A DNA stretch of 30,511 bases from the IMG/VR virus record IMGVR_UViG_3300046002_000768, positions 1 through 30,511 of that record, one strand, 5' to 3'. Shown here piece after piece: positions 25,902-30,157 of the stretch. The translations under genes were made by a program, and so were the position numbers. The notes beneath the pieces were generated by a model. That model ran no database searches. It saw only the letters and a program-made list of their open reading frames with translations, and had not been told where the DNA came from. The stretch comes from a virus. Numbering within the stretch: the first letter of the stretch is position 1; each line of letters starts with the position of its first letter.

Positions 25902-26104
25902 TGACAGTGGCAAACTGGACATCACTTATTGTTGCAATCATTGCTATTGTAACTGGCTTTGCTGGCGCAGTACGTTGGTTAGTAAAGCATTACCTGTACG
26001 AATTGAAGCCAAATGGGGGCGGTTCCGTGAAAGACCAAGTGAACCGATTGGAAGAACGCGTTGACCAAATCTATATCCTTCTCTGTGAGAAAGACAGCAA
26101 GTAA
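25901..26104 (+). CDS. small single-pass membrane protein, holin-like
   Basis: 67 residues. A hydrophobic segment (about 7-28, [20 protein letters not shown]) is followed by a positively charged stretch (VKHYLYELK), a Gly-rich linker and a coiled coil ([19 protein letters not shown]). This layout, one membrane helix plus cytoplasmic coil, is common for proteins that open phage lysis cassettes and may act as holin or holin partner. It starts with TAATG overlap after the tail gene. The next gene begins inside its 3' part in another frame, an unusual 44-base overlap. Confidence 0.75.
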
Positions 26105-27446
26105 GTACGCAGTATTTTTTCTACTATTAGGAACTTCATTCTTTTGGAGTCCTTCAGCAGAGGCTGTATCTACAGGACCAGTTCAAGTCACTTGTACTAA
26201 TGGTACATTTGGTACTGGCTGGGATAATGCCAATCAATATTTTGCTGATAAAGGAAACATAGCAGAGTACTATTGTTTTATAGTTCATAACACTGGATAT
26301 ATTAGCGACACAGTTCAAGACTCTGCACTACGTTGGTATAACGGAGTAGTTCCTACTCCTGTTGTAACTCCAACTCCCGATACTTCATCATCTCCTTCAC
26401 CTCAGCCAACTTCACCATCACCTTCGCCTGAGCCAAGTCCTGATTCTCCAACTGTGGTTTCTGAACCTTCACCTTCTCCGACTGTAGAATCACAAACTGC
26501 TCCCTCAAATCCTGAAACTCCGACTCCCGTTGTTGAAACTTCAACTGCTCCAACTTCAACTGAGACTCAAACTGTTTCTTCTGAGACAACAACAGCAACC
26601 CAAGAAACAACGACAGTATTAGAAACAAGTACTGCACCATCTAATCCCCCAATTCCTGTAGAGCCAGTGGCTCCAGAACCTCAACCTGTTCCTCAAACAA
26701 TACCAGACCCTGCCCCTGTTGTAGAGCCTCAACCACAACCTCAACCTGAGCCAGTTCCTGACCCAGCCCCAACGCCTGAGCCAGAGCCTGAACCTCAGCC
26801 CGAACCTGAGCAGCCACAACCTGTAGAACCTGAACCTGAGCCTCAAGAACCTCCACCTGTAGAAGAGCCTCCCGCAGAGATTCCTGAGCCTGCTCCAGAA
26901 GAACCATCTCCTGAACCAGAGGAACCTGCTCCTCTTCCAGAGGAAGTTCCTGCTCCTGAAGTTCCTGAACTTGCCCCTGAACCTGCACCTGAGCCTCCTG
27001 AAGTAGAACCAGAAGCACCGCTAGTCGCTGATGAAAATGCTACTGATGAAGAAAAGGCAATCATAGCAGATGTTCTTATTTCTGCAGCAATGGGTGAAGC
27101 ATTGACGACACAAACAATTCAAGACGCTGGTCTTACCTTTGCTGACCTACCACCAGAGACACCTGTCGAGGTGCGTCAAGATGCCAATGGTAACGAAGTT
27201 GTTATCACAGCAGAGGTAGCAGTAGCCCTTGAATTACTTGATAACCCAGCCGAATTACTAGCAGAAGTTTTCTCAGACCCAGGACAGGTACTCCTAGCAA
27301 TAGGAAGTATCGGTGCTGATATGAGTACAGAAGAAAGAGCAGAGTCTGAAAAGACTGTAGTTGCTGCCGTCATCGTAGGTCAAATCGCAGGACAGGCAGC
27401 AGTTGGTGCTGCTGCTGGTGCTGCCGCATACAGGAGGAAAATATGA
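26061..27446 (+). CDS. secreted, wall-spanning Pro/Glu-rich protein with C-terminal membrane anchor
   Basis: 461 residues from TTG 26061 (GGAAG six bases upstream); a GTG at 26085 is an alternative start, 453 residues. Signal peptide: basic RKTASK, hydrophobic [14 protein letters not shown], cleavage likely after SAEA (residue 35). Residues 36-97 form a small domain with two cysteines (C45, C72). Residues about 98-322 are a low-complexity Pro/Glu/Thr/Ser/Gln spacer with PEPEPQPE-like repeats. Residues 323-430 are acidic and helical. A hydrophobic Ala/Gly segment (432-457) and RRKI form a C-terminal anchor. Predicted topology: folded head outside, spacer through the wall, C-terminus in the cytoplasm. 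It lies between membrane proteins and the endolysin, so it may be a lysis factor (spanin- or LysZ-like in role) or a surface display protein. No LPXTG motif. Function unknown. Confidence 0.75.
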
Positions 27447-28756: not shown

Positions 28757-28906
28757 GTCATTTCTCGGCGTGTCTTATCAGGTAAGTTGATGTGTTGTAT
28801 GTGTATAATTTATATATAAGATAATATATATAATATATATAGGCGCGGAGCGCCTTATATAATATATATATATATAATATATATGATATACTATAACTAA
28901 ATAGAT
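28757..28906. other. AT-rich region before the right-hand operon
   Basis: No gene is seen. The stretch consists of TATATA tracts with a GC hairpin AGGCGC-GGA-GCGCCT (28841-28855) in the middle. It holds a TATAAT at 28804-28809 and further TATAAT-like words. The same kind of module (GC hairpin, CTTATAT, AT tract, ATATATATGA) stands before the terminase gene. It may contain the promoter of the right-hand operon or a melting region of a replication origin. Confidence 0.6.
28804..28809 (+). promoter_or_regulatory. candidate -10 box
   Basis: A perfect TATAAT in an AT-rich stretch 48 bases after the terminator. TTGATG at 28787-28792 is too near (11 bases) to be a normal -35 box, so this is a weak call. 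Confidence 0.25.
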
Positions 28907-28986
28907 TTACATAGTCTTCCTGCGTTTGAGTACTCTCCTGTCCTCCGCAGGAGGACTATGTAACAACTTTATGACAGGAGAAGTCA
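28907..28986 (+). promoter_or_regulatory. RNA-switch-like leader of the nuclease genes
   Basis: TTACATAGTCTTCCTGCG (28907-28924) pairs with CGCAGGAGGACTATGTAA (28946-28963), 18 bp with one T-G pair, around a 21-base loop. A shorter hairpin GTCCTCC-GCA-GGAGGAC (28940-28956) competes with it. TCTCCTGTC (28934-28942), mainly in the large loop, is fully complementary over 9 bases to GACAGGAGA (28973-28981), which includes the ribosome site AGGAG of the GTG at 28987. Together these form a possible pseudoknot or switch controlling translation. As DNA, the 18-bp repeat could also be an operator or origin element. Confidence 0.6.
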
Positions 28987-29175
28987 GTGATTCAATTAGA
29001 TAGTTACGAGTTACCTGAGCATATATCTTACTCAGCGTTTACAACTTACCTAACCTGCGGTTATCAGTACTACCTTGGAAGATTACTCAAGGTACCTGAA
29101 GAACCGTCCATCTGGTCAGCAGGAGGCAGAGCCTTTCACTACGCTGCAGAATTGTGGGACTTAGAAAATGAGTAA
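28987..29175 (+). CDS. N-terminal part of a split RecB/Cas4-like nuclease
   Basis: 62 residues, beginning SYELPEHISYSAFTTYLTCG. The pattern S-x-(S/A)-F-x-x-Y-x-x-C (C24) and GGRAFH (46-51, with His 51) are the start of the RecB-type PD-(D/E)XK fold: the first Fe-S cysteine and the motif-I histidine. The remaining motifs lie in the next gene. Starts with GTG preceded by AGGAG at 6 bases. The stop overlaps the next start (ATGAGTAA). Alone it cannot be an active nuclease, so it is either a subunit, one half of a recoded product, or the product of a frameshift mutation. Together with the next gene the length (about 260 residues) equals that of one-piece Cas4-family phage exonucleases. Confidence 0.75.
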   Translation: MIQLDSYELPEHISYSAFTTYLTCGYQYYLGRLLKVPEEPSIWSAGGRAFHYAAELWDLENE

Positions 29176-29767
29176 CTCATATTGGGATAAGGCTTGGGCT
29201 AAAGAAACTGAAGGACTAGATTTCGCCACTGCTCGTAGAGCAGGGCGTGCCACCAAAGATAATCCTAACAAGGAGGATGAGCATTGGTGGAATGAGCAAG
29301 GCTCCAAGTGGATAGATAATTATATCCTTTGGCGCAAGAATAATTCTAACTGGAAAATCTGGACTACACCACAAGGCGTAAAGGCTATTGAATTGGAACT
29401 CAATCCAATCATTGCTGGCGTGCCAGTCAAGATGTTCATTGATAGAATCTTTGAGGTCGATGGACAACTTGTTATTGTTGACCTCAAAACATCAGCACGC
29501 AAACCAATCTCCGACCTTCAACTAGGCTTCTACAAAGTAGGAGTCGAGATGATGCTAGGGGTTGAAGTCAATCTAGGAAACTACTGGATGTCTCGTGAAT
29601 CGGGGACAGGGGAAATGATTGACCTTAGAAGATATACCAAGGACACGCTGGAATACTTTGTCGATGGCTTTGATAAAGCACGAAAGGCTGGTATATTTCT
29701 ACCGAACCTACAATCGTGCAGTTACTGTGGACTCACAGCATACTGCCAATTCACAAAAGGAAAATAA
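29168..29767 (+). CDS. C-terminal part of a split RecB/Cas4-like nuclease
   Basis: 199 residues carrying the catalytic core: D92 in MFIDRIFEVDG, D105-x-K107 in LVIVDLKTSA, and QLGFY (Q118...Y122, the RecB QxxxY motif). C184, C187 and C193 (SCSYCGLTAYCQF) complete a four-cysteine Fe-S cluster together with C24 of the upstream protein. The N-terminal 60 residues contain WW and aromatic residues (EDEHWWNEQGSKWIDNYILW). The ATG overlaps the upstream stop by 8 bases, one frame apart. A frame-2 TAG at 29162-29164 limits any shift to the overlap. Probable role: DNA end-processing in replication or recombination. Confidence 0.8.
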   Translation: MSNSYWDKAWAKETEGLDFATARRAGRATKDNPNKEDEHWWNEQGSKWIDNYILWRKNNSNWKIWTTPQGVKAIELELNPIIAGVPVKMFIDRIFEVDGQLVIVDLKTSARKPISDLQLGFYKVGVEMMLGVEVNLGNYWMSRESGTGEMIDLRRYTKDTLEYFVDGFDKARKAGIFLPNLQSCSYCGLTAYCQFTKGK

Positions 29768-29770
29768 CAA

Positions 29771-30157
29771 ATGGCAGAAGACTACAAACTTCAAGTGTCT
29801 ATTCGCACTTCCTTGAATAAGGATGCGGATATGATAAACATCCGTGCTAATACAGTAGATGAACTCAGCGTACTGCTTGAGGGAATTGCTGATTACTCAA
29901 CACAGATTGCAGCAACAGCGAAGATGGTAACTGGTGCTTACACCGTAAGCCCTTTGGCGACAACGGTTTCAACTCCCGTCACAGCGCAAACTCCATCCTT
30001 CGTAACCGCCCCGCAAGTGGCTCCGTCAAGTACACCAACGTGTATTCACGGTCAGCGCATCTTCAAGTCGGGTCAGGCGAAAGCAACGGGCAAGCCTTAC
30101 GCGATGTGGGTCTGCCCACAACCGATGGGCGCAGACCAATGCAAGCCAGTCAACTAG
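29771..30157 (+). CDS. protein with C-terminal zinc-finger-like motif
   Basis: 128 residues. The N-terminal part (EDYKLQVSIRTSLNKDADMI, then NIRANTVDELSVLLEGIADY) looks like a beta-beta-alpha fold. A Thr/Pro/Ala-rich linker (60-90) follows, then CIHGQRIFKSGQAKATGKPY and WVCPQPMGADQC: C91, H93, C115 and C124 may bind one zinc. The end motif C-x-HG...G...(K)PY..W.C...C is known to me from small proteins beside replication genes in actinobacteriophages. It follows the nuclease by 3 bases, so it may be a DNA-binding partner. The family name is unknown. Confidence 0.72.
   Translation: MAEDYKLQVSIRTSLNKDADMINIRANTVDELSVLLEGIADYSTQIAATAKMVTGAYTVSPLATTVSTPVTAQTPSFVTAPQVAPSSTPTCIHGQRIFKSGQAKATGKPYAMWVCPQPMGADQCKPVN

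Follow-up and report, generated by a model that had tools for sequence, protein, structure and literature searches.

A phage nuclease of the Cas4/RecB type divided between two overlapping genes, with its proposed active site and predicted metal cluster shared between the halves

Results

The window, by which we mean the whole stretch of DNA analyzed here, is a 30.5-kb virus record (30,511 nucleotides; IMG/VR record IMGVR_UViG_3300046002_000768) from a tailed phage. Its putative nuclease operon comprises the following features:

28907-28963, plus strand: leader stem-loop, with arms at 28907-28924 and 28946-28963 and a loop at 28925-28945
28935-28942, plus strand: loop segment CTCCTGTC, the complement of the ORF1 Shine-Dalgarno, with which it is proposed to form a pseudoknot
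28973-28980, plus strand: ORF1 Shine-Dalgarno segment GACAGGAG, 6 nt before the GTG
28987-29175, plus strand: ORF1, predicted N-terminal part of the nuclease; GTG start, 62 aa; holds C24 and H51
29168-29175, plus strand: stop/start overlap ATGAGTAA, 8 nt, joining the end of ORF1 to the start of ORF2
29168-29767, plus strand: ORF2, predicted C-terminal part of the nuclease; ATG start, 199 aa; holds D92, D105, K107, Q118, Y122, C184, C187 and C193
29771-30157, plus strand: next gene, an L5/D29 gp49-like protein of the same replication gene block (PF25690, E 4.2e-9)

Ahead of the leader, positions 28810-28890 form a strongly A+T-rich stretch of TATA repeats, with lysis genes on one side and the nuclease operon on the other. 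Further upstream (26061-27446) lies a 461-aa open reading frame, rich in Pro/Glu/Ser/Thr repeats and with an apparent N-terminal signal sequence, for which PHROGs gave no match.

Both gene products fall on a single profile, PF12705 (PDDEXK_1), ORF1 at positions 1-48 (E 8.8e-7, 29.5 bits) and ORF2 at positions 69-247 (E 3.6e-9, 37.4 bits), each above the 22-bit cut-off, and PHROGs assigns both to exonucleases (ORF2 against phrog_1870, E 1e-37). By these matches ORF1 encodes the N-terminal part and ORF2 the C-terminal part of one PD-(D/E)XK (PF12705, Cas4/RecB-like) nuclease, in agreement with a sequence-only reading of this DNA that had proposed a RecB/Cas4-like enzyme in two overlapping genes. 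The CRISPR Cas4 profile PF01930 scored 21.7 bits against ORF2, with a cut-off of 22.7, and 24.8 bits against the one naturally fused relative, L063, to which PF12705 is the better fit (positions 1-247, 67 bits). A search by sequence of solved structures returned no relative up to E 0.1, and the function of all relatives is annotated by homology.

The residues expected of such an enzyme are distributed over the two chains, C24 and the histidine of the GGRAFH motif (H51) on ORF1, and D92, D105-x-K107, Q118xxxY122 and C184/C187/C193 on ORF2. The residue numbers and their division between the genes had been given correctly by the sequence-only reading, and neither the four cysteines nor the putative catalytic residues vary in the 137-139 split loci scored. 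One-piece homologues had been said to hold all of these residues in one chain, which is the case in 45/45 non-redundant proteins. The active-site set required by the PF12705 family (H, D, DxK and QxxxY) is present across the divided pair, whereas the usual architecture, with all motifs on one polypeptide, gives way to two genes in 138/139 loci; we file the pair as a two-gene variant homologous to PF12705 and not as a typical member. The layout of the cysteines, C24 being N-terminal and C184/C187/C193 C-terminal, fits the iron-staple arrangement of AddB and Cas4 (PMC3466216). Both halves are, judging from pN/pS values of 0.14 for ORF1 and 0.17 for ORF2 in the split loci, under purifying selection.

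Scans of viral contigs, guided by protein sequence or by alignment, gathered 139 distinct loci with both halves. The ATG of ORF2 overlaps the stop of ORF1 in 132 of them, with a constant frame step and an overlap of 8 nt (95 loci), 11 nt (28), 14 nt (4) or 20 nt (5). Six of the remaining loci have one or two genes between the halves and one, L063, is fused; none of the 139 has halves that are adjacent yet non-overlapping. Comparison of the junction in related genomes, which had been named as a check, thus finds the overlap kept and only L063 in a single frame. The junction sequence itself varies (ATGAGTAA, ATGGTTAA, ATGACTAA, ATGAATGA, ATGACAACTAA and longer forms) with no common slip site, while the ATG is always kept. 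All 132 overlapping loci have an ATG in the ORF2 frame among the final 27 nt of ORF1, as against 35 with one in the other frame (these sequences being related and not independent), which points to selection for the ORF2 start codon, with its position shifting between 8, 11, 14 and 20 nt. Most overlapping loci lack a good Shine-Dalgarno before ORF2, which fits termination-reinitiation, and short overlaps of this stop/start kind are enriched in genes for the subunits of heteromeric complexes (PMC10666635). A TAG at 29162-29164 in the ORF2 frame had been taken to confine any shift to a few bases; this holds for the window but not for many relatives, in which the ORF2 frame is open far upstream. 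Conserved with all key residues across 137-139 distinct loci, the split is, on these comparisons, not a matter of chance, and is old, stable and no sequencing error.

The six loci with separated halves (L144, L168, L183, L287, L288 and L364) include some that were seen in more than one metagenome assembly (e.g., L144 with L146, and L168 with L169 and L174). Their halves are 82-90% identical to those of the window (one contig-end fragment is lower), keep every key residue, have pN/pS values as low as elsewhere and remain within 1 kb of each other. The inserted genes encode 71-218 aa and in most cases start with the overlapping ATG, or right at the stop in L168; four of these loci provide ORF2 with an AAGGAG site of its own, and in L144 its coupling is through an ATGA overlap. 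As whole genes stand between the halves, those phages have to produce two chains and a frameshift product is excluded there. Overlapping and separated loci are interleaved within one clade of the tree, and on this phylogeny the insertions must have arisen at least twice.

In L063, represented by a single contig, the halves are fused through a 16-nt deletion (its length taken from comparison with L080). Its position well inside the overlapping clade (support 100/82) marks it as a derived re-fusion. One open frame is present in 80/80 distant homologues from one of the scans, and in the tree the one-piece and split groups each lie on one side of a fully supported, very long branch. Scans for intermediates, seeded by distant sequences, returned only one-piece homologues at ~25-35% identity and nothing between ~35% and 75%. 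The simple reading is that the split arose by fission of a one-piece ancestor, with the break site in the loop following the H51 helix and a summed length of the halves ~6-13 residues below that of one-piece proteins.

A structure model of the fused L063 protein (pLDDT 82.5, pTM 0.80) matched the nuclease domain of AdnA (Z 17.3), ACE1 (Z 16.0), AddB (Z 15.4) and Cas4 (Z 13.3), and is as a predicted fold closest to the iron-staple nucleases; the break point falls within a low-confidence loop of this model. When ORF2 was modelled alone its core remained confident, while the pLDDT of the three-cysteine region went from ~86-87 to 47-49, the two models having been built on different alignments, so that the loss of confidence in this region without ORF1 is only suggestive.

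The leader stem-loop has a folding z of -4.6 against shuffles. Among 23 diverse relatives, 14 of the 18 stem pairs have changed on both sides, pairing is preserved in 99.1% of cells as against 42-48% when the arms are slid, and no shuffle reaches this level of covariation. The Shine-Dalgarno segment GACAGGAG is invariant in the 23 elements except for A/G at one position, and its complementarity to the loop is present in 23/23 aligned elements, with 7/8 pairs never varying. Since this second helix hardly varies, covariation offers no proof of it and the pairing is suggested by complementarity; we regard it as a strong suggestion that the loop pairs with the ORF1 Shine-Dalgarno as a pseudoknot. 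Scanning for the DNA pattern alone, without reference to the protein, brought up at least 119 leader stretches. We analyzed 75 newly fetched copies, and in all 73 with enough sequence the nuclease pair follows the leader, directly in 41 and after a small gene in 32. Rfam holds no family for the element, with matches at chance level only.

The overlapping form is also carried by the cultivated Planktophila phages E7 and F5, which belong to a type of lytic viruses infecting "Ca. Nanopelagicales" (PMC10202952). One of these isolates, with its genome sequenced, counts among the 138 split loci, and the other has the same junction. Two contig scans of 84,980 bacterial and archaeal genomes found no relative, and hence no prophage copy that would point to a host, and the host group is therefore taken from the isolates; we infer that the window's own host belongs to the same group as the hosts of E7 and F5. 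In phage F5 the gene order runs from the split nuclease through a gp49-like gene to a DnaB-like helicase, RusA, a primase and a sigma factor, with no cas1/cas2 neighbors near the nuclease. A DnaB-like helicase likewise comes after the one-piece homologues of Mycobacterium phage Sheen and of a Cutibacterium phage. This replication-gene neighborhood suggests a role in replication or recombination.

Discussion

The arrangement found here is very probably that of a stable two-subunit iron-staple PD-(D/E)XK exonuclease, the halves of which are made by translational coupling. A two-subunit nuclease was among the options left open by the sequence-only reading, and it is supported by the conserved overlap, the separated loci and the separate selection on both halves, all of which, like the divided residues, are evident at the level of sequence. 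In this model, a one-piece ancestral gene would have broken in the loop after the GxxxH-histidine helix to give two genes with a short stop/start overlap. Ribosomes would start ORF1 at its own Shine-Dalgarno and reach ORF2 mainly through termination-reinitiation where the two genes overlap. The two chains would fold together non-covalently: the active-site histidine and one cysteine, the first, of the presumed [4Fe-4S] staple would come from ORF1, and the metal-binding D/D/K core and the remaining three cysteines from ORF2. The complex would probably serve, by analogy, in the 5′-end resection of phage DNA in the course of replication and recombination. What we infer in this model is that the halves assemble physically, bind the cluster and cut with this polarity, and that their translation is coupled.

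It is conceivable that ORF2 alone is the working enzyme and that ORF1 has taken another role, as a regulator, scaffold or decoy, its residues being kept by descent. The D/D/K core does lie on ORF2 and is predicted with confidence when this half is modelled alone. However, C24, H51 and nearly all ORF1 motif positions are invariant in 138-139 loci and identical to those of one-piece homologues, without the drift that a changed role would be expected to bring, and even the separated genes are found no more than 1 kb apart; we consider this explanation improbable.

Programmed ribosomal frameshifting (+1 or -2) at the overlap, yielding a functional one-piece enzyme with the separate chains as by-products, would account for the constant frame step of all 132 overlapping loci and has a true fusion, L063, as a natural counterpart. 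Against it stand the varying junction sequence and overlap length, the lack of a common slip site and the ever-present ATG, and as an obligatory mechanism, an option of the sequence-only reading, it is refuted by the six distinct loci with genes between intact, selected halves. Frameshifting is thus very unlikely as an explanation of the split, though a minor fused product could still arise from it in the overlapping loci. The third option, a mutation that recently disabled the gene (or an indel from assembly or sequencing), might be prompted by a junction only a small shift away from a single frame and by the existence of one-piece homologues, but is left with next to no likelihood by a split that recurs in 138/139 distinct loci of many metagenomic origins and in both phage isolates, with invariant catalytic residues and pN/pS of 0.14-0.17 in the halves.

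Returning to the two-subunit nuclease, its closest counterparts are the one-piece Cas4-like PF12705 exonucleases from phages of mycobacteria and Cutibacterium, such as the 265-aa gp72 of Mycobacterium phage Sheen, which share ~30-35% identity over the full length, the same residues and the place upstream of a DnaB-like helicase, and differ in being one gene and one chain with an H51-to-D92 spacing of 108-115 residues as opposed to ~102 for the summed halves. A phage clade of one-piece exonucleases within pfam12705 has been described (PMC5704561). The nuclease domains of AddB and AdnA have the same predicted fold as the split pair (Z 15-17), and AddB and Cas4 carry four cysteines placed as in the pair, with one towards the N-terminal end and the other three towards the C-terminal end. 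Both Cas4 and AddB use these cysteines for the cluster and are 5′-3′ exonucleases, although a zinc-bound relative, 3L0A, is also known (PMC3466216). In contrast to AddB, AdnA and Cas4, the split pair has no helicase domain and no cas1/cas2 neighbors, and has its N-terminal cysteine on another polypeptide.

Catalytic phage proteins in two chains that must reassemble have precedents in Aeromonas phage Aeh1 NrdA, which is fully active, phage 25 gp43A/43B, which co-purify, and T4 topoisomerase (PMC2988022). The nuclease is a different enzyme, has no recognized homing endonuclease between its halves and, unlike these examples, is split throughout a whole clade with the stop/start overlap as the usual form. 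We found no published split nuclease of the Cas4/RecB type in the open-access literature, and the word "split" is absent from the Cas4 phylogenomics paper (PMC5704561).

The system offers an iron-staple nuclease that has been split in nature and tested by evolution, and in which two polypeptides would have to complete a single metal cluster and a single active site. The overlapping, gene-separated and re-fused relatives form a natural series in which to study the assembly of a metal cluster across two chains, and to ask if a split of this sort has regulatory value or is neutral. The hosts of such phages are freshwater actinobacteria of very high abundance, and with two of the phages in culture these questions can be taken to infection experiments.

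With regard to regulation, it is possible that the leader stem-loop is a translational switch. The replication gene 32 of phage T4 is controlled via a leader pseudoknot and autoregulated. We tentatively raise the idea, rather unlikely as it stands, that the split is kept by selection: the leader pseudoknot, by blocking the ORF1 Shine-Dalgarno, and the coupling to ORF2 would together set the nuclease dose, with activity arising only once the two chains come together and so make the metal cluster and active site complete, perhaps under autoregulation like that of T4 gene 32.

Two further observations concern neighboring genes. The genes inserted between the halves (L183 2182-2526, L287, L288, L364 and L168 1051-1374) encode small, lysine-rich proteins of a single family that has no known relatives, and L168 carries a second inserted gene of 218 aa. 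Searches of Pfam and PHROGs gave no significant match to a known endonuclease and no informative family for them, DUF7574 being rejected at 25.1 bits, under its 27-bit cut-off; an ancestral homing-endonuclease insertion, since lost, is possible. At L201 (OX376641.1) the primase also lies in two overlapping genes, at 29023-29649 and 29498-29887 on the minus strand, with a 152-nt overlap, the N-terminal part corresponding to phrog_360 and the catalytic part to phrog_849.
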